Assembly (NCBI GenBank): GCA_029776255.1
Contig: JAKOTN010000045.1
Coordinates: 1 to 58,302 of the forward strand
From: Pseudomonadota bacterium
Lineage (GTDB): Bacteria > Pseudomonadota > Gammaproteobacteria > Burkholderiales > Rhodocyclaceae
Reading direction: 5' to 3'
Length of the DNA: 58,302 nt
The notes below the pieces were generated by a model that was not told where the DNA came from, searched no databases, and saw only the letters and a list, made by a program, of their open reading frames with translations. This document shows positions 2,593 to 49,318 of the stretch, piece by piece (position 1 is the first letter of the stretch; each line of letters begins with the position of its first letter). The position numbers and the translations under genes are program-made.

Positions 2593-2705
2593 ATCGCGGA
2601 TCGTCGCCAGAGGCACGAACGAGGCTTCACGCCGATGCGGCCACTCACCGGCGACATGCGACCTTTCGGGCAAGAAATGCGCCGCCCGGCACGGGTCGAC
2701 GACAA

Positions 2706-6041: not shown

Positions 6042-6315
6042 GATCGCGCAAGTCTAGCAGTCCGCGACACCGGATGTGTCGACCACGCCGGGCGCTCCGC
6101 CAATGTCGCCATGTAGCGACAGCGCAAGTGTCTGAGCCATTGAGGATAATCGACATCGACGGCGAATCGCGTCGCTTTTTCACGACAAAACAAGGGCAAA
6201 TCTTACGGATCGAAACAAAGAAACGCTTCCAACCCTATATTTTATAACCAAATAAATTTCTGGCACGGATCTCGCTTTGCCCTCGACGACTTCCAACCCC
6301 AGAGAGCAAAACCAT

Positions 6316-6957: not shown

Positions 6958-6969
6958 GGAGCGGCGAAA

Positions 6970-7656: not shown

Positions 7657-7708
7657 TCCGGACCGGCGCCAATCGACGGCTCGCTGTCCGTTCCATCGCC
7701 GGTTGTGC

Positions 7709-7737
7709 TTGGGCTTCGGCCCACCGGGGATTAGACT
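7709..7737 (+). promoter_or_regulatory. Candidate promoter of the sigma-factor operon
   Basis: TTGGGC (7709-7714) and TAGACT (7732-7737) are 17 bases apart. The predicted transcription start, about 7 bases past the -10, would coincide with the ATG at 7744, which would make the message leaderless. The -35 is a poor match, so the call is tentative. Confidence 0.4.
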
Positions 7738-7743
7738 GCGAAC

Positions 7744-9224: not shown

Positions 9225-9314
9225 TTTCCCGCCCGTCTGCCCGCCCGCCCGACCCCATTTGCCGACAACGCGCGTTTACACGATCACCCATCCACATTCC
9301 GCCAGGAGATCGCC

Positions 9315-10159: not shown

Positions 10160-12811
<2,652 letters not shown>

Positions 12812-26377: not shown

Positions 26378-26589
26378 GGCAGCAATCCTAACACATCATC
26401 GGTGACCCGGAGGAATTTGCCTGACACAGCGTACCGAGGTCGCAAACGAGAACCTCGCCGTCGCGCCGCACCGGAATTCAGGTAAGAGGAGTCCGGCGCG
26501 AGCACTCGCCCTACAATCGCAAATAACTCTAAATCAAGCACGGAATCGACTAATCTATGACAATCACCAACGTGTTTTTGGGGGAGACA

Positions 26590-28695
26590 ATGGGGATATG
26601 TGCGCGCAAATGCGGTTGGGCACCGTGGGTGTTTTTGGGATTGGCATCGGCTGTCGCCATGCCGGCCGCACGGGCGGCGACCGACGACCCGTTCTTCGAT
26701 CTAGAACTCAAGGAAGTTCTCAATCTTGAGATCACGTCGGTATCGAAAAAACCCCAGACAGTGTCACAAGCGGCCGCCGCAGTGTTCGTGATCACTGCCG
26801 ACGACATCCGCCGCTCGGGTGCGACCGCCCTGCCGGACGTACTGCGCATGGCCCCGGGCATCCATGTCGGGCAAATCAGCGCGAACAGTTGGGCGGTCAG
26901 TTCCCGCGGCCCGAGCGGGCGGTTCACCAATAAGCTCCTGGTGCTGATGGACGGTCGCAGCGTCTATACGCCAATGTTTTCGGGCGTTTTCTGGGATGTG
27001 CAGGATACCGTGCTGGCCGATATCGAGCGTATCGAAATCATCCGCGGACCGGGCGCATCGCTGTGGGGCGCCAATGCGGTCGACGGGGTGATCAACATCA
27101 TCAGCAAATCGGCGGCGGCAACGCAAGGTGGCATGCTGACGGCGGGCGCGGGTAACGAAGAACGCGGTTTCGGCTCGCTTCGCTATGGCGGAAAAGTTGG
27201 CGACGTCGGTTACTGGCGCGCCTACGCCAAAGGCTTCGACCGCGATGGATCGCTCCTTGCAACCGACCATGCCGCCGGTAACGACAATTGGCGGCAACAG
27301 CGCGCGGGGTTTCGTACCGACCTCGCGCCGAGTGGAATCGATTCGGTGACTTTCCAGGGCGATGTATACGCCGGACGCTCCGGGGAGAACAGTCAACTGA
27401 ATTTCTTGACGCCGCCCTTTAACGCGATTGTCGGCACCTCCCAAAAAGTATCGGGCGGCAACATGCTTGGACGCTGGCAGCGGGAAGTCTCGGCCAGCGA
27501 TTCCTTTACCTTGCAGTCTTACATCGATCATACCGAGCGCGACTGGCCGGCGCATCTGAACGAAAAACGCACCACTTTCGATCTGGATTTCCAGTATCGG
27601 ACGCGCCGTTTCCAGAACCACGACCTGGTTTTCGGCGTCGGCTATCGCACGAGCCATGACATGACGAAAGCCTCCTACACCGGCGTTCCGGCGAACGCCT
27701 TACAATTCGCGACCTTGCATCCGGGGTCGGCGAGCCGAAAACTGCTCAGTGCTTTCGTACAGGACGACGTGACCCTGCTGCCCGAGAAATTGACTCTGAC
27801 GCTGGGCACCAAATTTGAACACAACGACTATACCGGCCTGGAAATACAACCCAACGCTCGTTTGCTGTGGACCCCGGTCGCCGACACCACGCTCTGGGGT
27901 TCGATTGCCCGCGCGGTGCGCACGCCAAGCCGCGTCGATCGCGGCGGCGCAGCCAATCAAGCCGTTTTCCCGCCCGCCTCGGAAAACAATCCGCTGCCGC
28001 TGCCGATCCTGGTTCAAGCCAAAGCGAATGTCGACTCGGAATCGGTCGTCGCTTATGAAATGGGCTGGAAACAACGCCTGACGCCAACCCTCAGCGTCGA
28101 CGCGGCCGTTTATTACAACAACTACGACAAACTGCGAACCGCGAAAATAAATACCACGCTCTGTCAGCCGGCCGGCATTCCGGTGTCGCTGGCGTGCTTC
28201 TTCCCGGTCCCCCAGTCTTACGTCCAGCAAATCGCATTCGCCGGCAACGATGCCAAGGCCAGCAGTCATGGCGTCGAATTGTCGGTCGACTGGCGCCCAC
28301 GATCCGATCTGCGCTTCCAGGCCTCCGCCTCCCAATTCACCATGCGCATGTCCGAAAAGGGAGAGGCGTTCGCGACCGATCTGAAAGGCAGCGTCCCGGA
28401 ATTTCGGGGTTCGCTGCGCATGGCCTGGAACCCCCGGCCTGACACCGATGTCGATTTGTGGCTGCGGCGAGTCGGGCATTTGCCGAATGTCGTTGAATCG
28501 AGTCGCCTGTCGGTTCCAGGCTATACGGAACTTGATCTACGCTTGGCGTGGCGACCGGTGAAAACCGTGGAATTGGCGATCATCGGACGCAATCTGCTGC
28601 ACAAACAACACCAAGAGTTCATCTCGGAGATTCTGGATATGCCGCCGATGTTGGTGCAGCGATCGATATTCGGGCAGGTCAACTGGAAATTCTGA
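26590..28695 (+). CDS. TonB-dependent outer-membrane receptor
   Basis: A 701-residue receptor. After a signal peptide (ending MPAARA), the short segment LEITSVSKKPQTVSQ resembles a TonB box region. The plug domain (about 45-165) contains DVLRMAPGIHVGQI, ISANSWAVSSRG and IERIEIIRGPGASLWGANAVDGVINI. The rest is a beta-barrel ending in a C-terminal aromatic (NWKF), the usual insertion signal. I chose ATG 26590, which has a strong GGGGGAG ribosome site 4-6 bases upstream, over an ATG at 26557. The next genes, a YfiR-type protein and a hybrid kinase, follow with 14- and 6-base gaps. This grouping suggests signalling rather than plain nutrient uptake; the ligand is unknown. Confidence 0.9.
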   Translation: MGICARKCGWAPWVFLGLASAVAMPAARAATDDPFFDLELKEVLNLEITSVSKKPQTVSQAAAAVFVITADDIRRSGATALPDVLRMAPGIHVGQISANSWAVSSRGPSGRFTNKLLVLMDGRSVYTPMFSGVFWDVQDTVLADIERIEIIRGPGASLWGANAVDGVINIISKSAAATQGGMLTAGAGNEERGFGSLRYGGKVGDVGYWRAYAKGFDRDGSLLATDHAAGNDNWRQQRAGFRTDLAPSGIDSVTFQGDVYAGRSGENSQLNFLTPPFNAIVGTSQKVSGGNMLGRWQREVSASDSFTLQSYIDHTERDWPAHLNEKRTTFDLDFQYRTRRFQNHDLVFGVGYRTSHDMTKASYTGVPANALQFATLHPGSASRKLLSAFVQDDVTLLPEKLTLTLGTKFEHNDYTGLEIQPNARLLWTPVADTTLWGSIARAVRTPSRVDRGGAANQAVFPPASENNPLPLPILVQAKANVDSESVVAYEMGWKQRLTPTLSVDAAVYYNNYDKLRTAKINTTLCQPAGIPVSLACFFPVPQSYVQQIAFAGNDAKASSHGVELSVDWRPRSDLRFQASASQFTMRMSEKGEAFATDLKGSVPEFRGSLRMAWNPRPDTDVDLWLRRVGHLPNVVESSRLSVPGYTELDLRLAWRPVKTVELAIIGRNLLHKQHQEFISEILDMPPMLVQRSIFGQVNWKF

Positions 28696-28709
28696 ACGAG
28701 TCGACCGCC

Positions 28710-29279
28710 ATGACCGGAGATTCAGGACTTTCCACACCGCCGCGCCTGTGGCTTTCCGTGCTCGTCATGCTCATTGGCATGATGTTGTCGCCCAAGGCGA
28801 CGATTGCGGAAACGGTCATTCAGCGCGAGGACCGGATCAAGGCGGCGCTGATTTTCAAGCTGGTCAAATTCGTCGAATGGCCCGCCACCGCCATGAACGG
28901 CAAGGACCCGATCCAGATTTGCGCCCTTGGCGACTCCAGAGTTGGCGAGGCGTTATCGGCGGTCGATGGCAAACCGACGCGGGACCGGCTGGCGCAGTTC
29001 CGCCGGATCGCCAGCCTCTCTCCCACCGAGTTCAAAGGGTGTCACGTTCTCTATGTTCCCAGCGCGGCACGAGAGCTCGGTGTAGGAGTACCATTCGCCT
29101 TGCGTGGGCGCAGCATCCTAACGGTCAGCGACGCGCCCGATTTCGCACGACGCGGCGGCATGGTCTGCCTGGGTCAAGGCGAGAACAAGCTGTCTTTCGA
29201 GATCAATCTGCGTAACACTCGTGAAGGTGGCCTGGAACCGGGAGCCCCACTACTGGAACTGGCAACGATTATCGAGTGA
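28710..29279 (+). CDS. YfiR family periplasmic protein
   Basis: A 189-residue protein with an N-terminal signal or anchor (about 14-33, LWLSVLVMLIGMMLSP). The YfiR/DUF4154 domain shows REDRIKAALIFKLVKFVEWP, ICALGDSRVGEAL, GCHVLYVPSAA, SILTVSDAPDFARRGGMVCL and KLSFEINLRNTREGGLEPGAPLLELA. In Pseudomonas YfiR restrains the diguanylate cyclase YfiN (TpbB). Here no cyclase is adjacent and the partner is probably the hybrid kinase that begins 6 bases downstream. The start is ATG 28710, 14 bases after the receptor gene. Confidence 0.85.
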   Translation: MTGDSGLSTPPRLWLSVLVMLIGMMLSPKATIAETVIQREDRIKAALIFKLVKFVEWPATAMNGKDPIQICALGDSRVGEALSAVDGKPTRDRLAQFRRIASLSPTEFKGCHVLYVPSAARELGVGVPFALRGRSILTVSDAPDFARRGGMVCLGQGENKLSFEINLRNTREGGLEPGAPLLELATIIE

Positions 29280-29285
29280 CTCCGC

Positions 29286-32200
29286 ATGGCTAAGGATTTC
29301 AGTACCTCCTCTTCCCCACTGTCGATCCGCGACAAATTGCAGCGACTGGTATGGCGGACGGTCGCCACCGCCCTGGCCGTCGTCGCTCTGGCCATGTTGA
29401 TGTTTCAAGTGTGGACCTTCAGGAACACCATGATCGAACGCTTGGCCGTGGTAGCGCAAATGATCGGCGTCAACACCACCGCCGCACTTGAATTCGACGA
29501 TTCGCGACAAGCCACCAAGCTCCTCGGCTCGTTGCAGGCTGAAAAAGACATCGCGGCGGTCACCGTTTATTCGATCGAACGGGAATTTTTCGCCGGCTAT
29601 GAGCAGGCGGGTCAAGGCAAAGTGTCTGGCACTCCCGGAGACCCGTGGCTTTTGCGCGGCATGGAAGGCCGCGTGCCCGCCTATCGCTTCCGGGTCGACG
29701 CCATTGAGTACCTGGCGCCGATCACCCTCCATCGGGAAACCATTGGTTACGTTTACCTGCGCGCCAGCCCGGAGCGCTTCTACACCCAATTTCTCGGCAG
29801 TGTCCTGCTCATTCTTGGCGTGACCCTGGCGTCCGGCTGGCTGGCGTTTTTCTGGGCCGCCCGCCTGCAACAGCGCATCATCGAACCCATCTTCCGCCTG
29901 GCCGATTCGATGCGCCGGGTAACCGAAGAGCAGAATTTCAGCCTCCGGGTGCCGAACGACGAGCAGGATGAAATCGGGCAATTGACAGCGGGGTTCAACG
30001 ACATGCTGGCGCAACTCGAAGAACGGGACAGCAACCTCGCCGAGCGCGGTCTGGAACTGGCCAAGACCAACCGCGATCTGGAAACGGCCGTTCAGGAGGC
30101 GAACGAGGCCAAGGCGAGCGCGGAACAAGCCAATCGGGCGAAATCGATGTTCCTGGCCAATATGAGCCACGAGATCCGTACGCCAATGAATGGCGTGCTG
30201 GGAATGACCGAGCTGTTGCTCGATTCGCCACTGGACGACGAACAGCGAGGATTCGCCCGCACCGCCCTGCGCTCCGGACAAGCTCTACTGGCCGTGATCA
30301 ACGACATTCTCGACTTTTCCAAAATCGAAGCCGGCAAGCTCGAACTGGACCCCGTCGATTTCCAGTTGCGCGATCTGGTGGAGGATGTAGCGGGCCTGTT
30401 CGCCGAACGAGCGCAAGGCAAGGGCCTGGAGATCAACACTCTCCTGCCGCCGGACATGCCACTGTGGGTACGCGGCGATTCCGGGCGTTTGCGGCAAATC
30501 TTGTCAAATTTGCTGAGCAACGCCGTCAAGTTCACCAGCCTGGGCGAAATCAACATTCGCGCCACCCAGGTCGAGTCGGGACCGGGCGGCGTCCTGCTGC
30601 GCTTCGAGGTCAGCGATAGCGGTTGCGGCATCCCGGAAAACAAGCTGGAGGCGGTTTTCGAGGAATTCGACCAAGGCGAATTGGGTACCGCGCGCCGCTA
30701 CGGCGGTACCGGTCTTGGCCTGGCCATCGTCCGTCGACTCAGCGAACTGATGGGCGGATCAGTGGGAGTCACCAGCCAGACCGGCGTTGGCAGCACGTTC
30801 TGGGTCACCGCGCGCTTCGAGGTCGTCGATGCCGAACTGCCCGGCGAGTGGGAAGAAGACGGCGACGGCTTGCGCGAACGCAGAGTGTTGTTGGTCGACG
30901 ACAACGCCACCAACCGCACCATTCTGCTCTACCACGTCATCGGATGGGGAATGTCGGCGGAATCGGCGGCCGACGGTGGCGAAGCACTCGAAAAACTGCG
31001 ACGAGCCGCCATGCTCGGCCGGCCTTACGATGTCGTTCTTATCGACATGTTGATGCCGGGACTCGATGGGGTCGAAGTCACCAGGCAACTACGCGCAGAC
31101 GCTCGACTCGCGGCAACCCGCGTGGTCATGCTGACTTCGATGAACCGGGCAAGTGCGACACACGCCGCGCATAACGCGGGGGTTGATCGCTACGTGGCCA
31201 AGCCGGTGCGCAAAGCGCAATTGTTCGGCAGCATGCGGGTCGCTCTGGGGCTGGTATCCGAACAAACGGAAATCGATTCCGGAACCGAGGAGGACCACGC
31301 CGCGCTTCTGGGGCTCAAGGTGCTATTGGTGGAGGACAATCCGGTCAACCAGGAAGTGGCGTGCATCAGCCTGCGTCGCCTGGGATGCCAGGTTGTCGTC
31401 GCCAGTGGCGGTCGCGAGGGCGTCGAAGCCGCCACCACGGACTCGTGCGACATCATTCTCATGGACTGCCAGATGCCCGAAGTTGACGGCTTCGAAGCCA
31501 CGCGACTCATCCGTGACTGGGAATCCAAACAGGCCATTCCCGGGCACCCCGCCCGGCGGATCCCCATCATCGCGCTGACCGCCAACGCCATGCGCGGCGA
31601 CCGCGAGGAATGTCTGGAAGCGGGCATGGACGATTATCTCTCCAAGCCGTTTGCCCGCCCCGCCCTGCAGGATGTACTCGAACGCTGGACTCGCCCGCTG
31701 ATGCCGCAGATACCGCCGCTGCCCATTGAACAGCGGACGCAGCCGGCGGAACCCCTAAAGGCGCCCGCTTTCGACCCGGCCGTGCTCGAATCTTTACGCG
31801 AGGCCGGAGGCGACGCTCTGGTCACTCGGGTAGTCAAGGTCTTCACCGACGGCACGCCGGGCAAAATAAATGAGATGCGCGCGGCCATCGCCGCCGGTGA
31901 CGGCTCCCGCCTGGCCGCCGCCAGCCACTACCTCAAGTCGGGCAGCGCCAATCTGGGATTGACATCGTTTTCGGAACTCACAAAAACACTGGAGCGCCTC
32001 GGCAAAGCAGGTGACATCGACGCGGCGGCAAAGGAAATACAGAATTTGGATCGGGAGTTCGCGGCGGCGATCAGGGGATTGAAACAAGCGACCGAAAGAG
32101 AAACGGCCAACGTGTCGCCAACACCTGCCAACGAAACCGAATTGGGAGAAGCATCGTTGGCAACGCCGACAGCATCGCAGAAAATACGACGCGCCCGCCT

Positions 32201-32588
32201 CCTCGTGGTGGACGACGATGCCTCGTTAAGGGCAATTGCCCGACACTGGTTGGGGACAGGCGGGTTCGAAGTCCTTGAGGCCGAGGACGGTTACTCGGGC
32301 CTGATGATTGCCGCTTCGCAAAAGCCGGACGCCGTACTGCTCGATGTCATGATGCCTGGGTTGAACGGATACGACGTCTGTGCGCAAATACGTGCCTTCC
32401 CGGATGGCGCGACGATTCCAATCGTCATGATGACCGGCCTCGACGATTATGCCTCGGTCGAACGTGCCTACGACGCCGGCGCCACCGACTATTCGCCCAA
32501 ACCGGTCAGCTGGGTATTGCTGCAACACCGCCTGCGCTATCTACTTCGTGACCGCCCGCTCATTTCGGCCACTGCCGGCAACTCCTGA
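29286..32588 (+). CDS. Hybrid sensor kinase with three receiver domains and an HPt domain
   Basis: An 1100-residue multi-domain kinase. Transmembrane helices at about 20-40 and 170-192 enclose a periplasmic or CHASE8-like sensor. Then come HAMP (about 195-245), a coiled coil, and HisKA with phospho-acceptor His295 (NMSHEIRTPMNGVLGM). The ATPase has LSNLLSNAVKF, DSGCGIP and GTGLGLAIV boxes. A first receiver (about 535-655, VLIDMLMPGLDG) and a second (about 675-805, ILMDCQMPEVDGFEA) are followed by an HPt domain (His in AASHYLKSGSANLGL) and a third receiver (about 970-1090, VLLDVMMPGLNGYDV). Signal flow is probably sensor to receiver to HPt to another receiver. No output domain exists in the chain, so a separate effector is expected. 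Confidence 0.9.
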   Translation: MAKDFSTSSSPLSIRDKLQRLVWRTVATALAVVALAMLMFQVWTFRNTMIERLAVVAQMIGVNTTAALEFDDSRQATKLLGSLQAEKDIAAVTVYSIEREFFAGYEQAGQGKVSGTPGDPWLLRGMEGRVPAYRFRVDAIEYLAPITLHRETIGYVYLRASPERFYTQFLGSVLLILGVTLASGWLAFFWAARLQQRIIEPIFRLADSMRRVTEEQNFSLRVPNDEQDEIGQLTAGFNDMLAQLEERDSNLAERGLELAKTNRDLETAVQEANEAKASAEQANRAKSMFLANMSHEIRTPMNGVLGMTELLLDSPLDDEQRGFARTALRSGQALLAVINDILDFSKIEAGKLELDPVDFQLRDLVEDVAGLFAERAQGKGLEINTLLPPDMPLWVRGDSGRLRQILSNLLSNAVKFTSLGEINIRATQVESGPGGVLLRFEVSDSGCGIPENKLEAVFEEFDQGELGTARRYGGTGLGLAIVRRLSELMGGSVGVTSQTGVGSTFWVTARFEVVDAELPGEWEEDGDGLRERRVLLVDDNATNRTILLYHVIGWGMSAESAADGGEALEKLRRAAMLGRPYDVVLIDMLMPGLDGVEVTRQLRADARLAATRVVMLTSMNRASATHAAHNAGVDRYVAKPVRKAQLFGSMRVALGLVSEQTEIDSGTEEDHAALLGLKVLLVEDNPVNQEVACISLRRLGCQVVVASGGREGVEAATTDSCDIILMDCQMPEVDGFEATRLIRDWESKQAIPGHPARRIPIIALTANAMRGDREECLEAGMDDYLSKPFARPALQDVLERWTRPLMPQIPPLPIEQRTQPAEPLKAPAFDPAVLESLREAGGDALVTRVVKVFTDGTPGKINEMRAAIAAGDGSRLAAASHYLKSGSANLGLTSFSELTKTLERLGKAGDIDAAAKEIQNLDREFAAAIRGLKQATERETANVSPTPANETELGEASLATPTASQKIRRARLLVVDDDASLRAIARHWLGTGGFEVLEAEDGYSGLMIAASQKPDAVLLDVMMPGLNGYDVCAQIRAFPDGATIPIVMMTGLDDYASVERAYDAGATDYSPKPVSWVLLQHRLRYLLRDRPLISATAGNS

Positions 32589-33832: not shown

Positions 33833-35608
33833 TTGGCATTGACTGTACTTGGACTGTCTGGCGCGCTGACCCACGACCCGTCGGCAGCGCTTTATATTGA
33901 CGGCAAACTGGTCGCGGCGGCGGAGGAGGAACGTTTCGTTCGCGACAAGCACGCCAAAAATCGCATGCCTTACGAGGCCGCCAAGTTCTGCTTGCAGTTC
34001 GCCGGCGTCAAGCCGGCCGAGGTGGACGCCGTCGCCATTCCGTTCGCACCGATCAGCCTCTCCGAACCGGCGCGCTGGCATTACGCCAAACGATACTGGT
34101 ATGCGCCGGATCGCGCGCTCGACGCCCTGCTCACCGGTAATCGGCGTTTCCACCGGTACCGTCGACGTATCGAATGGTGCCTGCTACAACTTGGCTTCGA
34201 CCTGAAAAAGACCGAGATCGTGCCGGTCGAGCACCATCTCGCGCATGCGGCGAGCGCCTACCACTGCTCCGGCTTCACGGAAAAGACCGCGATTCTCGGT
34301 ATTGACGGCAAAGGCGAATACGCCACCACTTTTTTTGGCTACGGCGAAAATGGCCGGATCCACAAAATCAAGGAATTTTACGATCCGGATTCGCTTGGCG
34401 GCCTTTACGGCGCCTTGACCGAATATCTGGGTTTCGAAATGCTCGACGGCGAGTATAAGGTGATGGGCATGGCGCCATACGGCGACGCCAGCCGCCACGA
34501 CTTCTCGCGTCTGGCCACCTTCGTCAACGGGGAATTGACGATCAATACCGACTACGCCAATGTGATTGGCTTTCGTCGCCACAAGGAGCGCGGCAAGGGC
34601 TACTACTTTTCGCCGAAGCTGATCGAGTGGCTGGGTCCGAAACGCTCTGGCGACAGTGCCGACGATCCCTATATCCACTACGCAGCGAGCATGCAGAAGC
34701 TCTTCGAGGATCTCTCGCTGCAGATGCTCGATTATTACCTCGGCGCCATTTTACGCGAGAGTGGTCGCCTGGCTTTTTCCGGCGGCGGCGCGCTGAACGT
34801 CAAGCTGAATCAGAAAATCATCGCTCGTCCGGACGTGCGCGAACTATTCGTCCAACCGGCCTCCGGCGACGCTGGCACGGCGGTCGGCGCGGCGGCCTAC
34901 GTGTCCGTCGCGCGCGGCGTGCCGGTCGAAAAGATGGAACATGTTTATCTCGGTCCGGCGTACAGCAACGAGGAGGTGATCGCCGCCTGCGCCGGCCACC
35001 CCGCCCGACCGGCATGGCGACACATCGACGAAGTGCCGCGCCGAATTGCCCGTCTACTGGCCGACGGCCACCCGGTGGCGTGGTTTCAGGGGCGAATGGA
35101 ATTTGGTCCGCGCGCGCTAGGAGGACGGTCGATTCTCGGCTGTCCCAGCGTGGCGGGCGTTGCCGACCGGATCAACGCCCAGATCAAGTTCCGCGAACGC
35201 TGGCGTCCTTTTTGCCCAAGCATGCTCGACAGTGTCGGCCCACAGATGCTCGGCAGCCCACATCCCGCGCCATTCATGACCTTCACTTTTGAAGTGGCGC
35301 CTGGCTGGAAGGAAAGAGTGCCGGAGGTGGTCCACGAAGATGGAACCTCGCGGGCGCAGGTGCTCAAGCGCGAGTACAACCCTCGCTATTACGACCTGAT
35401 GATCGAGCTGGAAAAAATCACTGGCAACGGCGTGGTACTGAACACCTCGCTCAACCGGCGTGGCGAGCCGATGATCTGTTCACCGACCGATGCCTTGAAC
35501 ATGTTCCACGGCTCCGACCTGCAATATCTGGTGATGGAAGACATCCTGGTAGTCAAGGACAACACCGATTTCGCGTTGGGATCGCCCCACGGCGAGGCGT
35601 CGGAATAG
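33833..35608 (+). CDS. Carbamoyltransferase, NodU/CmcH (TobZ) family
   Basis: A 591-residue enzyme that would transfer a carbamoyl group from carbamoyl phosphate, via carbamoyl-AMP, to a hydroxyl of a sugar or natural product. The N-terminal Kae1-like domain shows LGLSGALTHDPSAALYIDG, the metal-binding VEHHLAHAASAYHCSGF and ILGIDGKGEYATTF, and DGEYKVMGMAPYG. The C-terminal YrdC-like domain shows WFQGRMEFGPRALGGRSIL and FRERWRPFCPS. The start is TTG 33833, with GAGGT about 9 bases upstream; homology begins right there. It has no biosynthetic neighbours here, so the acceptor is unknown; a surface sugar is a reasonable guess. Confidence 0.88.
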   Translation: MALTVLGLSGALTHDPSAALYIDGKLVAAAEEERFVRDKHAKNRMPYEAAKFCLQFAGVKPAEVDAVAIPFAPISLSEPARWHYAKRYWYAPDRALDALLTGNRRFHRYRRRIEWCLLQLGFDLKKTEIVPVEHHLAHAASAYHCSGFTEKTAILGIDGKGEYATTFFGYGENGRIHKIKEFYDPDSLGGLYGALTEYLGFEMLDGEYKVMGMAPYGDASRHDFSRLATFVNGELTINTDYANVIGFRRHKERGKGYYFSPKLIEWLGPKRSGDSADDPYIHYAASMQKLFEDLSLQMLDYYLGAILRESGRLAFSGGGALNVKLNQKIIARPDVRELFVQPASGDAGTAVGAAAYVSVARGVPVEKMEHVYLGPAYSNEEVIAACAGHPARPAWRHIDEVPRRIARLLADGHPVAWFQGRMEFGPRALGGRSILGCPSVAGVADRINAQIKFRERWRPFCPSMLDSVGPQMLGSPHPAPFMTFTFEVAPGWKERVPEVVHEDGTSRAQVLKREYNPRYYDLMIELEKITGNGVVLNTSLNRRGEPMICSPTDALNMFHGSDLQYLVMEDILVVKDNTDFALGSPHGEASE

Positions 35609-41582: not shown

Positions 41583-42035
41583 CTAAGGCTTTTGCATTCC
41601 GCCTTTCCGGTCGGAGGGGTGGCATGAACAGTCCTCTCCGGCGGCCGCTCGCGTCAGATTGCGCATGATTCCGCACTGACTGGCGTTTTGATTGGCACAG
41701 CAGGTCTCGCGCAAGGTGTGCAATTGCCGCTCAAGCACGTGCAGCGAGTCCAACTGCCGATGAATGCGCTCGATCTGTCGGTCGATCAAATGATTGATCT
41801 CGTCGCAGGCCAGTTCCGGATTGGCCTGAAAGCCGCGCAGCGCGCGGATGTCCGGCAGGCCCATGCCAAGCGAGCGGCAGTGGCGGATGAATTTGAGCTG
41901 CACCAGGTGGGCGTCGGTGTAGCAGCGATAGCCGTTTGCCTCGCGCGCGGGCCGGTCGAGCAATCCTTCGCGCTCGTAAAAACGCACCGTCTCCACGTCA
42001 CATTCGCCACGCTGGGCCAATTCCCCGATCCTCAT
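41583..42035 (-). CDS. cadR: MerR-family Cd(II)/Pb(II)-responsive regulator
   Basis: A 150-residue regulator. The winged helix (1-70) starts MRIGELAQRGECDVETVRFYEREGLL and continues with NGYRCYTDAHLVQLKFIRHCRSLGM. The dimer helix (about 75-110) is followed by the metal site: Cys in ELACDEIN (about 78) and C-terminal Cys in TCCANQNASQCGI, the pattern of CadR/PbrR. A second Cys/His group (EDCSCH) lies near the C-terminus. It is divergent from cadA; the operator at 42062-42078 lies in the cadA promoter. It should repress without metal and activate when Cd or Pb is bound. Confidence 0.9.
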   Translation of the reverse strand: MRIGELAQRGECDVETVRFYEREGLLDRPAREANGYRCYTDAHLVQLKFIRHCRSLGMGLPDIRALRGFQANPELACDEINHLIDRQIERIHRQLDSLHVLERQLHTLRETCCANQNASQCGIMRNLTRAAAGEDCSCHPSDRKGGMQKP

Positions 42036-42056
42036 TTTCTCACGCCCGAAAAATGC

Positions 42057-42087
42057 TTGACCCCGTACCGACTACGGGTTGTCGAAT
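42057..42087 (+). promoter_or_regulatory. cadA promoter with MerR-type dyad
   Basis: TTGACC (42057-42062) and TCGAAT (42082-42087) are 19 bases apart, the long spacing typical of MerR-controlled promoters. Within the spacer CCCGTA and TACGGG (42062-42067 and 42073-42078) form a dyad around CCGAC, the expected CadR operator. The cadA ATG is 30 bases downstream. Confidence 0.8.
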
Positions 42088-42116
42088 CATGGCACCGTTC
42101 CTCGAGATTTGTCACC

Positions 42117-44468
42117 ATGAATCATCCTCGCCAAATGTCGGACCCGTTTCCCGCCCCGGAAAATGCGCGGTGCGCCGAAACATGCGGGCACGCAAAGCGC
42201 CCGGACGAACGGCGGCACGTCGATCATCATTCGTCCCGTCACGATCAGTCCCACGATCACCATCATCATCCGCACGCCGACGCGTGCTGCGCCCATGGCA
42301 AGGACGCCGGCAAGGCGCTGGCGCCCGTCAGGCACGAGCCGCCGCCGGAAGGCGCCAGCCGGGTGCGCTACCGCATCGACAAAATGGACTGCCCAACTGA
42401 AGAGGCGCTGATCCGCCATCGGTTGGAACCGATGGCGGGAATCCTCCGGCTGGATTTCAATCTGCTGGGTCGGGAACTGACGGTACACCATCGTCTGGAC
42501 GATACCGTGCCGATCACCGACGCCTTGCAGGCCCTGGACATGGCGCCTCAACCGTTGCGAGACGGCGCGCCGGCCGCCGCCGTGCCACCGGCCTTGAGCG
42601 GCCGGCTGAAAGGTTTGCTGGTCGTCAGCGGCCTGGCGGCAGTCGGCGCCGAAGCCATCTCCTGGACCAGCGGCATTGACGACGCCTGGCCGGTAGTGAC
42701 CCTGGCCCTGCTTTCCATCCTGAGCGCCGGTCTGCCGACACTCAAGAAAGGCTGGATCGCGCTCAGGAATCTGACGTTGAACATCTATTTCCTGATGTCG
42801 CTGGCCGTTGCCGGGGCGCTCATCATCGGCAAGTGGCCGGAAGCCGCGATGGTGGTATTCCTGTTCGCCGTCGCCGAAGCCATCGAAGCGCTATCGCTGG
42901 AGCGGGCGCGCAAGGCGATCAAGGCGCTGACGGCGCTGGCGCCCGAAACCGCCGAGGTCAAGGTCGCGGAAGGCTGGCGGGAATACGCCGTGGCCGAGGT
43001 GCCGATCGCTTGCCGCATCCGCGTGCGGACCGGCGCCCGCGTGCCGCTCGACGCGCGGGTCGAATCCGGGCGTGCCGCGCTCGATCAGGCACCGATCACC
43101 GGCGAAAGCCTGCCGGTGGACAAAGGTCCCGGCGATACGCTCCACGCTGGCAGCATCGTCATCGACGGAGTGGTGGAAGCGACGGTGACGGCCGTCGCCG
43201 GCGACAGCACCCTGGCCCGTATCGCGACGGCGATTCAGGACGCACAATCGCAACGCGCGCCAACCCAGCGTTTCGTCGATCGGTTCGCCCGTTACTACAC
43301 CCCGGCGGTGGTGGCTTTGGCGATCTTGCTTGCCGTGCTCGGCCCGTTGCTGCTCAACGGAAATTGGGAGACGTGGCTTTATCAGGCGCTGGTGATGCTG
43401 GTGATCGCCTGCCCGTGCGCGCTGGTGATATCGACGCCGATCACGGTCGTCAGCGGCCTGGCGGCGGCGGCGCGGCACGGCATTCTGATCAAGGGCGGGA
43501 CGTACCTCGAAAAGGGTCGTTTGCTGAAAGCCGTCGCGCTCGACAAAACCGGCACGCTGACCGTGGGCAAACCCGCGCTGACCGACGCCGCCCCGTTTGG
43601 CGATCTGCCGTTGGAGCAAGCGCTGTTGATCGCCGCCAGCCTCGACGAACGCAGTACGCATCCTGTGGCGCAAGCGCTGGTCCGGGGATGGCGCGACCGA
43701 CAACCCGATGCGGCACTGCTGCCGGTCGAGGATTTCGGCGTACTCAGCGGCCATGGCGTCAAGGGTCGCATCGCCGGCCAGCCGTGGCATCTAGGGAATC
43801 ATCGCCTGGTGGAGGAATTGGGCATCTGCTCGCCGGAACTGGAAGCGCGGCTCGCCGTGCTGGAAAACGCCGGAAAAACCACCGCCATCCTGTGCGCGCC
43901 TGCCGGACCGGTCGCCATTTTCGCCGTCGCCGACACCGTTCGACCGGAGAGCCTGGCCGCCGTGACAGCCCTCCGGGCGCTGCACGTCGAACCGGTGATG
44001 CTGACCGGCGACAACCCGGCCACCGCGCGGGCCATCGCCAAGGCCCTGCGCATCGAGGACGCGCGCGGTAACCTGATGCCGGACGACAAACAAGCCGCTG
44101 TCGCCGAACTCGCAAACCGCCACGGTGCGGTGGGCATGGTCGGCGACGGCGTCAACGATGCGCCGGCGCTGGCGCGGGCCGACATTGGCTTCGCGATGGG
44201 CGCGGCCGGCACGGCCACCGCCCTGGAAACCGCCGACGTGGCGATCATGGATGACGACCCGCGCAAGATCGCCGACTTCATCCGCCTCAGTCGGCGCGCG
44301 GGATCGATCTTGCGGCAGAACATCGCGTTGGCGCTGGGAATAAAGATCGCATTTTTCGCCTTGGCCCTGGCGGGTCAGGCGACGCTGTGGATGGCGGTGT
44401 TCGCCGACATGGGCGCCAGCCTGCTGGTGGTCGCCAACGGGCTGCGCCTGCTGCGCAAGTGGACCTGA
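42117..44468 (+). CDS. cadA: Heavy-metal-translocating P1B-type ATPase (Cd/Zn/Pb)
   Basis: Efflux pump of 783 residues. The N-terminus is rich in His, Cys and Asp (about 35-65), followed by a heavy-metal-associated domain with MDCPTEE. Eight membrane segments are expected; the sixth carries the CPC motif (VIACPCALVIS). The phosphorylation site DKTGTLTVGKP, the TGES loop (PITGESLPVDKG), the nucleotide-binding GHGVKGRI and LTGDNPATARAIA, and the hinge GDGVNDAPALARADIGFAMG are all present. The start ATG 42117 was chosen because a promoter and operator lie just upstream and the reading frame before it covers them. It is controlled by the divergent cadR. Confidence 0.93.
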   Translation: MNHPRQMSDPFPAPENARCAETCGHAKRPDERRHVDHHSSRHDQSHDHHHHPHADACCAHGKDAGKALAPVRHEPPPEGASRVRYRIDKMDCPTEEALIRHRLEPMAGILRLDFNLLGRELTVHHRLDDTVPITDALQALDMAPQPLRDGAPAAAVPPALSGRLKGLLVVSGLAAVGAEAISWTSGIDDAWPVVTLALLSILSAGLPTLKKGWIALRNLTLNIYFLMSLAVAGALIIGKWPEAAMVVFLFAVAEAIEALSLERARKAIKALTALAPETAEVKVAEGWREYAVAEVPIACRIRVRTGARVPLDARVESGRAALDQAPITGESLPVDKGPGDTLHAGSIVIDGVVEATVTAVAGDSTLARIATAIQDAQSQRAPTQRFVDRFARYYTPAVVALAILLAVLGPLLLNGNWETWLYQALVMLVIACPCALVISTPITVVSGLAAAARHGILIKGGTYLEKGRLLKAVALDKTGTLTVGKPALTDAAPFGDLPLEQALLIAASLDERSTHPVAQALVRGWRDRQPDAALLPVEDFGVLSGHGVKGRIAGQPWHLGNHRLVEELGICSPELEARLAVLENAGKTTAILCAPAGPVAIFAVADTVRPESLAAVTALRALHVEPVMLTGDNPATARAIAKALRIEDARGNLMPDDKQAAVAELANRHGAVGMVGDGVNDAPALARADIGFAMGAAGTATALETADVAIMDDDPRKIADFIRLSRRAGSILRQNIALALGIKIAFFALALAGQATLWMAVFADMGASLLVVANGLRLLRKWT

Positions 44469-44547: not shown

Positions 44548-44940
44548 CTACTTCAATGCCAGCAAATAAGCGATCACATCGGCCCGTGCCGCCGCGTCGG
44601 CCAGGCCATCGTATTTCATCTTGCCGCCGGGAACGATCTTCTTCGGCGCGGCGATATAGGCGTCGATCCTGTCTGACGTCCAGACGATGCCGCTTTGCCT
44701 CATCGAATCGGAGTAGCCGGCGAAGTCGGCGACCGACGCCGCCTTGCGGCCGTTGACGCCGGTCAGCGTCGGCCCTTTCTTGTTTTTGCCCGGCACGGCG
44801 CTATGGCAATCGCCGCATTCCTCGGCAAACAGATCGGCACCGCGACGGGCGTCGCCCGCCGCCAACGCGTGCCCGGCGACGGCCAGCAGCAGACAACCGG
44901 CGACTAGCGCGCCGCGGCGGCGCATCGGTTCCATTATCAT
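44548..44940 (-). CDS. Periplasmic monoheme cytochrome c
   Basis: A 130-residue class I cytochrome c. A signal peptide ends around LAVAGHALA (residue 27). The heme site is CGDCH (42-46) and the axial Met is in PGGKMKYDGL (about 103). It resembles small cytochromes of the c2/c550 type that shuttle electrons in the periplasm. The start ATG 44940 has AAGGA 8 bases upstream. It lies 17 bases after the Cyc2-like gene on the same strand, so the two are probably one transcript and partners. Confidence 0.88.
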   Translation of the reverse strand: MIMEPMRRRGALVAGCLLLAVAGHALAAGDARRGADLFAEECGDCHSAVPGKNKKGPTLTGVNGRKAASVADFAGYSDSMRQSGIVWTSDRIDAYIAAPKKIVPGGKMKYDGLADAAARADVIAYLLALK

Positions 44941-44957
44941 GATTTGCGTCCTTTCCA

Positions 44958-46349
44958 TCAGATGGCGAGCCAAAGGAACAACATGGTCGTGTTGTTGGCG
45001 CTGGCCTTTCGGTCGACGCCATTCACCTCGTCGATATAGTGACTGCCGCCGTTGAAGCGACTGTAGCCGGTGTACTGCAACCCCAGGCGGGCGTTGGCCC
45101 ATGGCGCGCCCCATGAGCTTTCCTTGCCCCATGGCGTCCAGTCGGCTTGCAGGAGATAGCCGGCGGTATCCGGCTTGTTGTTGTACGAACTCGCGCCGTA
45201 CAGGCCACTGTCGGCACGACCGGTGGTCTTGAACAAACCGGCCGTCGCCCCCCAACTCTGGTTGTAGTGGTAGGAGGTGGCGACCCGGAAGTTGTTGAGC
45301 GTGTTGTTCTTGTTCTCCGAGGCGGCCAGCGTATCGAAGGTGTAGTTCAGTTTCTGCCATTCGCGCACATAGCTGGCGTTGACCGTGAAGATATGCTCGC
45401 GGTTGCCGAGGAACTGGTACGCGGCATCGACCCCGACATCGCGATAACGATCGGCCCGGCCCGGATCGTCTACGTTCTCGACGCGGGCATTGAAACCGAA
45501 CAGGCCAACCGAGAAATTGTCGCGCTTCATGTCCTTGAAGTAAGCCAGGCGCCAGTAGGTTCCCGGGCCGCTGAACTTTCCGGGATCGATGGCGCCGACG
45601 GCGACCTGACTGTTGTTCAGTTTGTTGGCCGTACTCTTGGACACCGAATTGTAAAGTCCCAGCTCGGCGTAGAAATTGTTGTCCCACAAGGTATAGGCGT
45701 TCAGGCCCAGTACGCTGCCGGCAAGATTCTCGACCAACGGCGAGGCGCCGGTACCGAAACCGAAGTCGGATGCCGTGTAGGGAAAGCGCCATTGGCCGAG
45801 CGTATTGAACGGATCGGTCAGCGTCGGGTTATTGTTGAACGACACGCCGAATACCCCTTCCTTGTCGCCAATCTTCAGCGCGCGGGCGTAACGGACGTCC
45901 AGCTGATCCAGCGACGACACGCGATCGACGCCGGAGTAGGTGGCTTGCACGAACGTGCCGATCGAATCGGTCAAGCGGCCGGCGAGAAACGCCGAGACTT
46001 CCTGCACCGCGGAGTTGTTGTTGCTGTTGAAATGCGCCGGTGCTTCCGGCAGGTCTTTCGCGGTACGCGTCCAGTTCATCACCGCCATCGCCGAAAGAGG
46101 CACCTTGCCGTCCTTGCCGTCGGTATCGGTATAGGCGCCGAGCTTGAATTTGACGCCATACGGTGTCAGTTGCGGCCCAAAACCGCCCACGTGGCACGCC
46201 GCGCAATCCGAACCCGTCTGCCGCGCATAACTCGGCACCGCCTCGGCCGGCGTGTTTAATGTCACGGCCAGCAGCACGCCGCCCGCCACGGCGGCCGACG
46301 CGAACAGCCGCCGCTTGATAGAGCCGATCATCGGCGAATTCCTGAACAT
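44958..46349 (-). CDS. Cyc2-like fused cytochrome c and outer-membrane porin
   Basis: A 463-residue protein. After a signal peptide (cleavage near TPAEA-V), the mature N-terminus reads VPSYARQTGSDCAACH, with heme site CAACH at 49-53, then PQLTPYGVKFKLGAYT. This matches the signature of Cyc2, the monoheme porin that oxidises Fe(II) outside the cell in iron-oxidising bacteria. The remaining about 390 residues are beta-rich, with alternating aromatic and polar residues and a C-terminal LFLWLAI strand, as for an outer-membrane barrel. The start ATG 46349 has GGAG 8 bases upstream. No metal specificity can be read from the sequence; related proteins also exist in organisms not known to oxidise iron. 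Confidence 0.7.
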   Translation of the reverse strand: MFRNSPMIGSIKRRLFASAAVAGGVLLAVTLNTPAEAVPSYARQTGSDCAACHVGGFGPQLTPYGVKFKLGAYTDTDGKDGKVPLSAMAVMNWTRTAKDLPEAPAHFNSNNNSAVQEVSAFLAGRLTDSIGTFVQATYSGVDRVSSLDQLDVRYARALKIGDKEGVFGVSFNNNPTLTDPFNTLGQWRFPYTASDFGFGTGASPLVENLAGSVLGLNAYTLWDNNFYAELGLYNSVSKSTANKLNNSQVAVGAIDPGKFSGPGTYWRLAYFKDMKRDNFSVGLFGFNARVENVDDPGRADRYRDVGVDAAYQFLGNREHIFTVNASYVREWQKLNYTFDTLAASENKNNTLNNFRVATSYHYNQSWGATAGLFKTTGRADSGLYGASSYNNKPDTAGYLLQADWTPWGKESSWGAPWANARLGLQYTGYSRFNGGSHYIDEVNGVDRKASANNTTMLFLWLAI

Positions 46350-46553
46350 CTTCCTTACTCCCTGCGAGTGACAACAACTCATGCGAAAGCGCTTGCCGAG
46401 GCAAAACGTTTCGCGCCCGCCGGTACTCTAGGGTGTCGACGCTTGCGAACACCTTACGAACTCAAGGAAATACCGATCGGGGTTTGCGCGTCAGGTCTTC
46501 GCAAGCTTGCGCGGCGCAAGATGCTGGCGCTCAACACTTGCGGAGAACTCCTG

Positions 46554-47147
46554 ATGACCTCACCATGGCAGCGCTTGCGCCCATCCGGGCAATGGGGCCG
46601 TTTTCTGGCGGTCGAGGCCGTGCTGCTGGTGCTGCTCGGCGGGCTGTTGTTCGCCGGCGGCAAGCTTGCCCTTGACCACACCAATACCCTGGAATTCTGC
46701 ACGTCCTGCCACGAAATGCGCGACAACAACTTCGAGGAATACAGCCATACCATCCATGCCCGCAACCGCACCGGCGTCAAGGCCACCTGTTCCGACTGCC
46801 ATGTACCGCACGAATTCGTCGACACCATGATCCGCAAGGCGCTGGCCGCCAACGATGTTTTCCAGCATTTCGCCGGACGCATCGACACGCCGGAGAAATT
46901 CGAGGAACACCGGCTCGAACTGGCCAAGCGGGTGTGGTTGCGGATGAAGACCAGCGACTCCCGCGAGTGTCGCAACTGCCACGACGTCGCCGCCATGTCA
47001 CCGGAAATGCAGGGCAAAACCGCCCAGAAACAGCACCGGCGGCTGAGCACCGGCGAAAAAACCTGCATCGACTGCCACTACGGCATCGCCCACAAGGAAC
47101 CGGCCGGCGGTGCCGAGCCCGAAGACGCGCTGACGGAACGGCCGTGA
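46554..47147 (+). CDS. NapC/NirT-family tetraheme cytochrome c
   Basis: A 197-residue inner-membrane quinol dehydrogenase. One N-terminal transmembrane helix (about 17-37) anchors it. Four heme sites are present: CTSCH (49-53), CSDCH (79-83), CRNCH (139-143) and CIDCH (171-175). The TSCHEMRDNNFEEYSHTIHARNR region is typical of NapC/NirT. It passes electrons between the quinone pool and periplasmic partners. No nitrate or nitrite reductase is near; instead it is divergent from the Cyc2-like and monoheme cytochrome genes, hinting at a different partner. The start ATG 46554 has GGAGA 8 bases upstream. Confidence 0.92.
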   Translation: MTSPWQRLRPSGQWGRFLAVEAVLLVLLGGLLFAGGKLALDHTNTLEFCTSCHEMRDNNFEEYSHTIHARNRTGVKATCSDCHVPHEFVDTMIRKALAANDVFQHFAGRIDTPEKFEEHRLELAKRVWLRMKTSDSRECRNCHDVAAMSPEMQGKTAQKQHRRLSTGEKTCIDCHYGIAHKEPAGGAEPEDALTERP

Positions 47148-47217
47148 CCGTAACACCCCGGACAATCGGCGATGCCTGTCACGCCTCCCCATTCCCTCAT
47201 GGAAAAACTTGATAGCC

Positions 47218-47886
47218 ATGCGCATTCTTGTCGTGGAAGACGATAACCTGGTCGCCAGCGGAATCAAACAGGGTTTGTCCCAGGCTGGCTACACCGTGGA
47301 CGTGGCCGATTCAGCCGAAGCGGCCGAAGATTCCTTGCGAAACGAAGCCTTCGATCTGGCGGTGGTGGACATCGGCCTGCCGCGAGCCGATGGCCTGACC
47401 CTCATCCGCCGCTTGCGTGAACAAGACAACCCCCTGCCGATTCTGGTGCTGACCGCTCGTGGCAGCATGGAGGACACCATCAGCGGCCTCGATGTCGGGG
47501 CCGACGATTACATGACCAAGCCTTTCCGCCTCCCGGAACTCAGCGCGCGAATCCGCGCCCTGATCCGCCGCTCGCATGCCATCGCCGATACCTGTCTGCA
47601 CCACAATGGTCTGACGCTGGACACCAACAGCCGTACCGCGACGCTCGGCGGCGCGCCACTCGAACTGACCAAGCGCGAGTGGGCCATTCTGGAAGCGCTG
47701 CTGATGGCCTCGCCAAACGTCGTCAGCAAGGACCGGCTGGTGCAGACGCTCGCCGGTTGGGACAAAGACATCACCCTCAATGCGATCGAAGTCTACGTTT
47801 CCCGCCTGCGCGCCAAGCTCGCCGAGGGATACATCGAAATTCGCACCGTTCGCGGCATCGGCTATCGCATCGATGCCCCCGCCTGA
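47218..47886 (+). CDS. OmpR/PhoB-family response regulator (TctD/QseB-like)
   Basis: A 222-residue regulator. The receiver domain (1-115) carries the acidic pocket VEDDN and phospho-acceptor Asp51 in VVDIGLPRADG, plus Thr in LTARG and Lys in MTKPFRLPEL. The winged-helix output domain (about 125-220) shows LELTKREWAILEALL and the recognition helix NAIEVYVSRLRAKL. It ends 14 bases inside the kinase gene. It lies 70 bases after the NapC/NirT gene on the same strand, so it may control the cytochrome locus. Confidence 0.9.
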   Translation: MRILVVEDDNLVASGIKQGLSQAGYTVDVADSAEAAEDSLRNEAFDLAVVDIGLPRADGLTLIRRLREQDNPLPILVLTARGSMEDTISGLDVGADDYMTKPFRLPELSARIRALIRRSHAIADTCLHHNGLTLDTNSRTATLGGAPLELTKREWAILEALLMASPNVVSKDRLVQTLAGWDKDITLNAIEVYVSRLRAKLAEGYIEIRTVRGIGYRIDAPA

Positions 47887-49318
47887 CTCCCCGGCAGCGC
47901 GCCCGGCGCCCAGTCTACGGCAACGACTGCTACTGGCGATTCTGTTGCCCATGGCGGCGGTTTTTGCCGTCAGCGTCTTTTTCGATTACCGTCTGGCCAA
48001 GGAAACCGCCGACGCCGCTTTCGATCAGTCGCTGACCGACGACGCCCTGGACATCGCTTCGCACATTCGGAACAGCGAAAACCTGCCGCTGCTCGAGCTT
48101 TCGGCCGAAGTGGAGACGATGCTGCGCAACGATGCCCCGGACAAGGTTTACTTCGCCGTCCGCGACAGCGCCGGGCAATTGCTGGCCGGCGACGCCGATC
48201 TGCCGGATTTTCCGGTTGCCGCCCACAAGCAGGCGGAATTCAAGGACAGCGCCTTTCGCGGCGAACCGACGCGCGTCGTGTTTTACAAGATTCGCTCGCC
48301 ACACGGCGACCTGACCATCACCGTCGCCGAAACCATCGTCAAGCGCAACGGCGCCAGCCGGACAATCCTGACCGCGATGATCCTGCCGACGCTGGCCGTC
48401 ATTCTGGCCACCTTCATGGCCGTCTATTTCGGCGTCAGAAAAGGACTGCGGCCGCTGGAGAACGTGGAAAAGGAAATCGCCACCCGCTCGCCGAGGGATT
48501 TACGCGAAATCGCCATCGACGCCACGCCACGCGAAATCCGGCCGATGCTGGCGCGCCTCAACGAACTGTTCGACCTGCTGCGCCTGGCCTCGGCGGCGCA
48601 ACAGCGCTTCCTGACCGACGCCGCCCATCAGTTACGCACCCCGCTGGCCGGCCTGCAGACCCAGATCGAACTGGCGACGGCCGAAGGACGCTTCCAGTCC
48701 GACCCCGAACGGCTGTCCCGGATCGAGGACGCCACCGAGCGCATCTCGCACCTGGTCGATCAACTGCTGACTTACGCCCGCGCCGAATCGAGCACGGCGG
48801 CGACGCAGATTTTCGAACCGGTCTCGCTGGCCGTGCTGGCCGAAAAAGCGGCGTCGATATTTCTCGACCGCGCCTTGGGCAAGAATATCGACCTCGGTTT
48901 CGAAATCGCGCCGGCGACGGTCGACGGCAGCCCCTGGATGCTGCGCGAAGCCTTGGCCAACATCATCGACAACGCCTTGCGCTACACCCCGGCGCATGGC
49001 GTGGTCACCGTGCGCAGCGGCATGCGCGGCGCCGCCGCCATCCTGGAAGTCGAAGACAACGGCGCGGGCATCCCGGCCGACGAACGCGAACGCGTTTTCG
49101 AACGCTTCTATCGTCGGCCCGGCTCCCCAAGCGGCGGTTGCGGCCTCGGCCTGGCCATCGTCCGCGAAATCGCCGCGCTGCACGGCGCCAGTGTCGAACT
49201 CGCCGATCCGCAAGGCACCACCGGCCTGCGCATCGCGCTGGTTTTTCCACGCGCCGGCGCTCCCGCTCACACCGATCCCCATCGCGGCATCGACTCCCCG
49301 GCGATGGAAAAACCGTAG
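47873..49318 (+). CDS. Sensor histidine kinase (TctE/QseC-like)
   Basis: A 481-residue kinase. The first membrane helix is at about 20-40 and the second about 168-190; between them is a two-component sensor kinase N-terminal (2CSK_N) domain with KETADAAFDQSLTDDALDIA. A HAMP-like linker leads to HisKA, with phospho-acceptor His252 in DAAHQLRTPLAGLQTQIE. The ATPase shows ANIIDNALRYTPAHG, EDNGAGIP and GGCGLGLAIVREIAALHG. The start ATG 47873 overlaps the regulator gene, consistent with coupling. The stimulus is unknown; such kinases often sense carboxylates or metals. Confidence 0.9.
   Translation: MPPPDSPAARPAPSLRQRLLLAILLPMAAVFAVSVFFDYRLAKETADAAFDQSLTDDALDIASHIRNSENLPLLELSAEVETMLRNDAPDKVYFAVRDSAGQLLAGDADLPDFPVAAHKQAEFKDSAFRGEPTRVVFYKIRSPHGDLTITVAETIVKRNGASRTILTAMILPTLAVILATFMAVYFGVRKGLRPLENVEKEIATRSPRDLREIAIDATPREIRPMLARLNELFDLLRLASAAQQRFLTDAAHQLRTPLAGLQTQIELATAEGRFQSDPERLSRIEDATERISHLVDQLLTYARAESSTAATQIFEPVSLAVLAEKAASIFLDRALGKNIDLGFEIAPATVDGSPWMLREALANIIDNALRYTPAHGVVTVRSGMRGAAAILEVEDNGAGIPADERERVFERFYRRPGSPSGGCGLGLAIVREIAALHGASVELADPQGTTGLRIALVFPRAGAPAHTDPHRGIDSPAMEKP

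Follow-up and report, generated by a model that had tools for sequence, protein, structure and literature searches.

A Cyc2-like cytochrome-porin locus with an apparently exchangeable, presumed quinone module and a recurrent operator-like box in a Rhodocyclaceae genome

In a 58,302-nucleotide contig of a 3.79 Mb Rhodocyclaceae genome (JAKOTN010000045.1, assembly GCA_029776255.1; this whole stretch of DNA is referred to below as the window), five adjacent genes encode a fused cytochrome-porin resembling Cyc2, a small class I cytochrome c, a tetraheme protein of the NapC/NirT family, and a two-component system (Table 1). All five had been described in an initial annotation, and all proved to be real and located where it had placed them. 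From comparisons of sequences and predicted structures, we assign a probability of about 0.6 to the interpretation that the locus specifies a regulated electron conduit across the cell envelope, leading from a quinone module in the inner membrane to the cell surface and switched by the adjacent kinase and regulator via an operator-like box. Specifically, the quinone module (the tetraheme protein here, a cytochrome b561 in most relatives) would exchange electrons with quinone, the small diffusible cytochrome c would ferry them across the periplasm, and the fused cytochrome-porin, with its heme at or in the barrel, would pass them through the outer membrane; kinase and regulator would switch the gene set via a 17-bp box before the quinone module and the porin.

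A scan of named genomes yielded 65 loci, which together with the window form a set of 66, and partner genes were identified by profile searches around the porin gene. The hosts of the 65 loci are chiefly Betaproteobacteria, with some Gammaproteobacteria and one metagenome-assembled genome (MAG) labelled Chitinophaga. A small cytochrome c gene lies near the porin gene in 64 of the 66 loci (absent from L040 and L053). A tetraheme gene is present in 15 (the window, L002 to L010, L020, L040, L049, L060, and L062; those labelled in L020 and L040 are partial genes at contig ends), and a cytochrome b561 gene, upstream of the porin gene and on the same strand, in 42 (a fragment at the contig end in L026); four of these 42 were scanned, and all belonged to PF01292. 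The two never occur together in any of the 66 loci. Nine loci have neither, five of them with less than 1 kb of sequence upstream of the porin gene (L011, L053, L057, L058, and L063). The tetraheme gene is divergent from the porin gene in the window, L002 to L007, L010, and L062, lies downstream of porin and cytochrome genes in L008, L009, and L020, and directly follows the porin gene in L049 and L060, where the cytochrome gene comes next, and in L040, where the contig ends. Eight other loci (L002 to L007, L010, and L062) thus share all five genes in this divergent arrangement, among them that of Candidatus Accumulibacter aalborgensis (L002), whose porin frame is identical to that of G352, a genome of the window's genus. 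The order is therefore not unique to this genome; uniqueness would have counted against the initial annotation. A chance neighbourhood is ruled out by recurrence, in whole or in part, in 65 loci of other genomes.

NapC/NirT proteins and cytochromes b561 are unrelated families that both typically handle quinones, and within this one gene set the quinone module appears to have been swapped between them. A first porin tree was built from 100 of 118 frames (18 scoring below 150 bits were dropped, nine loci had no frame, and L072 and the short L074 to L103 were skipped as repeats), with L057 carrying no label and loci with cut or unexamined context counted as having no module; a second tree held 45 of the 100 frames, chosen by the analyst. 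On both trees (100 and 45 rows), tetraheme-type porins stand in three separate places, two of which lie inside b561-type groups (Aquabacterium, L040/L049; Zoogloeaceae, L020). The starred branches of the porin tree force three changes, and placing the 14 tetraheme-type porin rows in one clade was rejected (approximately unbiased test, p 6.8e-31). The tetraheme tree omits the partial proteins of L020 and L040 and the duplicate L165; in it, the 13 linked tetraheme proteins, those of L049 and L060 included, form a single clade (support 100/98), and 31 other NapC/NirT proteins from the family fall outside it. These 31, which were those returned for the best-scoring matches, include the second tetraheme protein of the window genome, and diagnostic residues likewise set the linked proteins apart from them. 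Because the porins fall in three places while the linked tetraheme proteins form one clade, the Aquabacterium lineage seems to have taken up a tetraheme gene into a b561-type operon. In L020, the tetraheme gene may be a separate recruitment; its partial product, cut by the contig end, has K at position 86, where 12 of the 13 linked proteins have H.

The tetraheme protein of the window contains four CXXCH sites, matches PF03264 with an E value of 5.9e-66, displays the CXXCHXM pattern at heme 1 (CTSCHEM), and starts with a hydrophobic stretch as read by eye. It misses the NapC models, scoring 231.5 against a cutoff of 310.6 for TIGR02161 and 201.2 against 349 for PRK10617. When 199 genomes of the family were searched with it, the protein itself and its kin scored 272 to 461 bits and came from three genomes, all of them porin-bearing, and nothing else listed exceeded 211 bits, the lower-scoring proteins being compared by score only. 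On the basis of the tree and the family-wide scores, a stray NapC was rejected. The initial annotation would have been weakened by a protein closest to a dedicated NirT or NapC; what was found is a subfamily apart from the 31 sampled NapC/NirT proteins. The second tetraheme gene of the window genome (L199, contig C60, positions 8000 to 9635) is followed by a gene for an EB_dh heme-type protein (PF09459), and no nitrate reductase was recognized in the 14 kb that were read by eye.

A further regularity concerns the promoter regions. Nine loci (the window, L002 to L007, L010, and L062) have, in the divergent promoter region, a facing pair of 17-bp boxes resembling CTTGCGAANNCCTGACG, separated by 8 to 30 bases, and in many b561-type loci where regulator and kinase are encoded upstream, a single related box, CCTTCRRWNNCCTGACR, lies between the kinase and b561 genes. 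A search expression that admits both forms gave 41 matches in the 921,295 bases of the 65 loci, with 0.4 expected from shuffled sequence (two-base blocks permuted, 10 rounds), and all 41 lie no more than 400 bases upstream of a tetraheme, b561, or porin gene. Boxes are present in 33 of the 65 loci: 32 of these belong to the 43 loci that have a linked regulator, and the remaining one (L033), whose contig begins inside the kinase gene, belongs to the 22 that have none. While 13 of the 22 regulator-less loci have less than 3 kb on one side, none of the nine with 3 kb on both sides carries a box. The regulators of linked loci without a box are 42 to 53% identical to that of the window, versus 49 to 81% for those with one, the two ranges overlapping. 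In the window genome, two exact matches were found, both in the window; when two mismatches were allowed, the 16 matches equaled the 16 of a reversed control. The b561-type pattern had 46 matches in 198 genomes of the family, versus 7 in the reversed control. It occurs solely at the porin locus in five genomes (G303, G322, G367, G388, and G463), and the other seven of the 12 genomes with a porin of this clade have no b561-type match at the locus: three (G000, G352, and G387) carry the tetraheme form of the box, G352 with two b561-type matches elsewhere as well, two (G427 and G333) carry weaker variants, and in two (G347 and G354) none was seen.

Since the spacing of the arms varies and b561 loci have one arm alone, the box pair is read as DNA sites; an RNA hairpin was rejected on the same grounds, with no folding done. 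OmpR-type boxes consist of direct hexamer repeats, and these were also considered and rejected, only one exact pair being present in the nine regions at spacings of 4 or 5.

The porin begins with a hydrophobic, signal-like stretch ending in AEA (read by eye), followed by AVPSYARQTGSDCAACH with a single CXXCH. No Pfam or NCBIfam family was found for it. The model, computed from 56 aligned sequences (mean predicted local distance difference test score, 85.9; predicted template modeling score, 0.83), features a short helical heme region followed by 16 long strands, as counted. Among the 50 Foldseek matches listed, the best folds are general porins such as OmpF, with 8 to 14% identity and target template modeling scores of 0.41 to 0.62, and no solved Cyc2 structure is among them. 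Plasmid-borne relatives (nine records in total) come from Acidithiobacillus ferrooxidans, Acidiphilium cryptum, Caballeronia, Methylocystis, and Polymorphobacter, those of the first two matching at 31.7% over 90% of the porin query. Profile comparison aligned the porin with a set headed by the plasmid protein of A. ferrooxidans over 425 columns and with a more distant set of seven over 351 columns (probability 99.5%), and 44 of 274 genomes drawn from the class contain matches that grade from full length to the heme region only. Given these profile matches and the class-wide gradient, the porin is, at the level of sequence, homologous to Cyc2-like proteins over its full length.

The sequence features given for Cyc2 by Keffer et al. 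(PMC8406198) include AXPXFAR[Q/K][T/Y] upstream of the heme site and PXL four residues after CXXCH; a length of at least 365 residues with a fused 16-strand porin is a further characteristic of Cyc2. The window protein agrees in its single N-terminal CXXCH, its fused 16-strand barrel, and its 463 residues. Its first motif reads AVPSYARQT, with Tyr for Phe, and, owing to two residues inserted relative to L068, L069, and L071, PQL begins six residues past the His (CAACHVGGFGPQL). The frame [FY]ARQTG..C..CH was found 60 times in the 66 loci, 39 times with F and 21 times with Y, and is missing from L011, L031, L047, L055, L058, L060, and L063. Because these two sequence features of Keffer et al. 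are not strictly present, we use the label Cyc2-like for the protein rather than Cyc2. The initial annotation had named failure of the porin part to match Cyc2 in profile or structure as refuting; the porin part does match Cyc2-like proteins by profile over its whole length and is modeled as a 16-strand barrel. In Uliginosibacterium gangwonense (L041), a stretch of less than 5 kb encodes two fused cytochrome-porins that belong to different clades (8001 to 9296 and 11222 to 12589), and in a Methylotenera MAG (L061, 8001 to 9340) the gene is split over two frames.

Table 1. Features of the locus, in coordinates of the window
Feature	Position	Strand	Remarks
Fused cytochrome-porin (Cyc2-like), 463 aa	44958..46349	-	N-terminal single heme site and 16-strand barrel model
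Small class I cytochrome c (mitochondrial/c2/cy-like), 130 aa	44548..44940	-	PF00034
Tetraheme NapC/NirT-family protein, 197 aa	46554..47147	+	PF03264, N-terminal hydrophobic stretch; presumed inner-membrane quinone module
OmpR-type response regulator	47218..47886	+	Response_reg/Trans_reg_C
Sensor histidine kinase	47873..49318	+	2CSK_N sensor domain, HisKA, HATPase_c
Divergent promoter region of porin and tetraheme genes, 204 bases	46350..46553		From gene coordinates
Operator-like box CTTGCGAACACCTTACG	46442..46458	+	92 bases from porin start
Operator-like box CTTGCGAAGACCTGACG	46489..46505	-	Faces the first box; 48 bases from tetraheme start

The coordinates also bear out that the monoheme cytochrome gene starts 17 bases past the porin stop on the same strand. 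The closest solved relatives of its product include cytochromes cy and c2. Downstream of the tetraheme gene, the regulator and kinase genes overlap. Against NCBIfam, the regulator matches PmrA best, followed by TctD and QseB, and the kinase matches QseC best, all under the cutoff; the 2CSK_N domain of the kinase was recognized by Pfam. The earlier designation of the pair as TctD/TctE-like is therefore just one among several near labels. A metal-binding ExxE motif was not seen when the sensor part of the kinase was inspected by eye. As the initial annotation had it, no terminal reductase was recognized among the gene calls of the window, ten of which were checked against Pfam; the sole further CXXCH gene among them encodes cytochrome c1 of the bc1 complex. 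A MerR regulator gene and a divergent P-type ATPase gene, presumably of the metal type, occupy positions 41583 to 44468, the latter ending 79 bases from the small cytochrome gene, and a relative of this ATPase was met in just 1 of the 65 loci. Farther away are a TonB-dependent receptor gene followed by one for a large hybrid kinase of the CHASE8 type that has three receiver stretches (26557 to 32588) and a carbamoyltransferase gene (33833 to 35608; PF02543, PF16861).

Other assemblies of related genes were encountered as well. In a third arrangement (L104, L105, L106, L019, and L059), porin and small cytochrome are accompanied by further cytochromes, with neither tetraheme nor b561 found; there is a two-heme PF00034 protein in L104 and L059, a two-heme frame in L019, and a cytochrome c' (PF01322) in L104. 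In L138 (G179, 5173 to 10063), a distant Cyc2-like gene stands in a row with genes for a NapC/NirT tetraheme protein, a single-CXXCH EB_dh protein (PF09459), a response regulator, and a kinase, which is the same logic as that of the window locus with other parts. In L136 (G197, 2836 to 6726), a Cyc2-like gene lies near genes for a tetraheme protein, a single-heme cytochrome, and a protein resembling the flavoprotein of sulfide dehydrogenase. The Cyc2-like and CoxA-type oxidase genes of L117 (G263, 2385 to 7848) form an arrangement reminiscent of the rus operon.

The strongest reason for linking the outer-membrane part to the quinone pool is that one quinone-active family replaces another in the same gene set. 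The chain of three cytochromes under sensor control proposed in the initial annotation gains from this swap and from the shared box, whereas a role in Fe(II) oxidation is not supported as such. Concerning direction, known NapC/NirT proteins oxidize quinol, and cytochromes c2 and cy are of high potential, so that transfer from quinol to such a cytochrome is downhill; for these two reasons, we slightly favour outward flow (quinol to module, cytochrome c, porin, and extracellular acceptor) over inward flow. A more specific proposal, which we hold only tentatively and at short of even odds, is that this branch of the Cyc2 superfamily operates in the direction opposite to that of Cyc2 itself: heterotrophs of sludge and fresh water would discharge the quinone pool via a swappable quinol dehydrogenase, the small cytochrome c, and a single-heme porin to an extracellular acceptor, under their own two-component system and operator.

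Inward conduction, in which the porin would take electrons from Fe(II) or another surface donor, the cytochrome would pass them to terminal oxidases, and the tetraheme protein or b561 would feed part of them into the quinone pool, appears unlikely but is the most serious competitor. The Cyc2 of Mariprofundus oxidizes Fe(II) and has a potential of 208 mV (PMC8406198), and in L117 a distant Cyc2-like gene shares its strand with a nearby CoxA-type gene, the two being two frames apart (motif-based). ImoA, a NapC/NirT protein of Sideroxydans, oxidizes quinol in Shewanella and has been suggested to act as a quinone reductase in Sideroxydans itself (PMC13390432); because of the latter suggestion, the presence of a NapC/NirT protein does not fix the direction, which weighs against the outward preference. 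Against inward conduction, the published Cyc2 motif is not strictly matched by the porin. Furthermore, transfer from cytochrome c2 to ubiquinone is uphill, and we know of no energy coupling in NapC/NirT or b561 modules; most named hosts of this clade are also not known as iron oxidizers.

It is quite improbable that the locus serves a periplasmic branch without extracellular exchange, with module and small cytochrome supplying another periplasmic acceptor, such as an oxidase, a peroxidase, or a stress reductase, and with a sensing or protective role for the porin-cytochrome. Such a role would fit the usual service of NapC and b561 to periplasmic enzymes, the resemblance of the small cytochrome to cytochrome cy, an oxidase donor, and the replacement of either module by a two-heme cytochrome in some relatives; however, no such enzyme was noticed to recur among the neighbours read by eye (7 + 5 loci, with no systematic search made), the small cytochrome is the most constant partner of the porin (itself constant by the way the loci were found), and porin and quinone module share a box-bearing promoter region. 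That the porin-cytochrome pair is the unit and the tetraheme or b561 gene and two-component system are mere neighbours is barely credible, since one module is exclusively present, the tetraheme gene occurs in several orders, and related boxes precede tetraheme, b561, and porin genes, even if the pair stands without either module in four complete loci and without a linked regulator in nine loci with 3 kb on both sides.

Several observations count against the envelope-spanning conduit that we favour. The four complete loci lacking both modules are L019, L028, L059, and L061, and three contigs end too close to rule out a second module, that of L060 on the upstream side and those of L023 and L047 on the downstream side. 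The box is missing from 11 of the 43 regulator-linked loci (L008, L009, L019, L028, L030, L043, L048, L050, L051, L056, and L059), L030 carrying a near variant; since the expression was derived from these same sites, the box evidence is one of specificity, not of presence. Of the 46 b561-type pattern matches, 41 lie away from porin loci, and the pattern was dropped as a genome-wide marker for that reason; the off-locus matches may be further sites of such regulators or reflect composition bias. The loci are related by descent and hence not independent. Finally, the gene set is accessory: the porin is found in only 3 of 28 genomes of the window's genus, and at more than 600 bits in 12 of 199 genomes of the family.

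In the open-licence papers searched, no description of the exact gene set was found, in agreement with the initial annotation. Keffer et al. stated in 2021 that much is still to be verified on Cyc2 function, including in organisms not known to oxidize iron, and that additional functions are possible (PMC8406198). In the present clade, Cyc2 homologues outside known iron oxidizers are tied to a probable quinone module as well as to a regulator and box that are defined. As some host genera include strains whose record titles do not label them as MAGs (Thauera, Zoogloea, Ideonella, and Plasticicumulans) and the regulator and box are defined, the role should be testable by gene removal and by the inducing signal. 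The exchange between NapC/NirT and b561 is natural evidence that the two may be functionally equivalent in serving one outer-membrane partner.

Cyc2 (published clusters 1 to 3) of A. ferrooxidans and Mariprofundus ferrooxydans PV-1 shares with the window set the N-terminal single heme site, the fused 16-strand barrel, the length of at least 365 residues, and a small cytochrome c nearby; the window set differs by the Tyr for Phe, the shifted PXL, and the quinone module and two-component system. NapC of the periplasmic nitrate reductase belongs to the same PF03264 tetraheme family, but the window protein falls in a clade separate from 31 sampled members (not confirmed as NapC proper), and no reductase was recognized beside its gene. 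Cyc2-like genes of Dechloromonas, U. gangwonense, and Aquabacterium were listed by He et al. in 2017 (PMC5566968), so that the taxa overlap with ours, U. gangwonense DSM 18521 being L041 with its two such genes; the accessible part of that paper mentions neither a regulator or box nor a Cyc2 operon containing b561 or NapC/NirT. It does suggest that in one mto operon a b561 fusion is the counterpart of CymA, which gives the interchangeability of b561 and CymA a precedent outside Cyc2. The MtoAB-MtoD-CymA/ImoA system of Sideroxydans lithotrophicus ES-1 resembles the window locus in combining an outer-membrane conduit, a small periplasmic cytochrome, and a NapC/NirT tetraheme protein at the quinone pool. 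No frame with more than four CXXCH was present in L001 to L066, as an MtrAB/MtoAB-type decaheme cytochrome would require; whereas the MtoAB conduit consists of a decaheme cytochrome and a larger porin, that of the window is a single-heme fusion.

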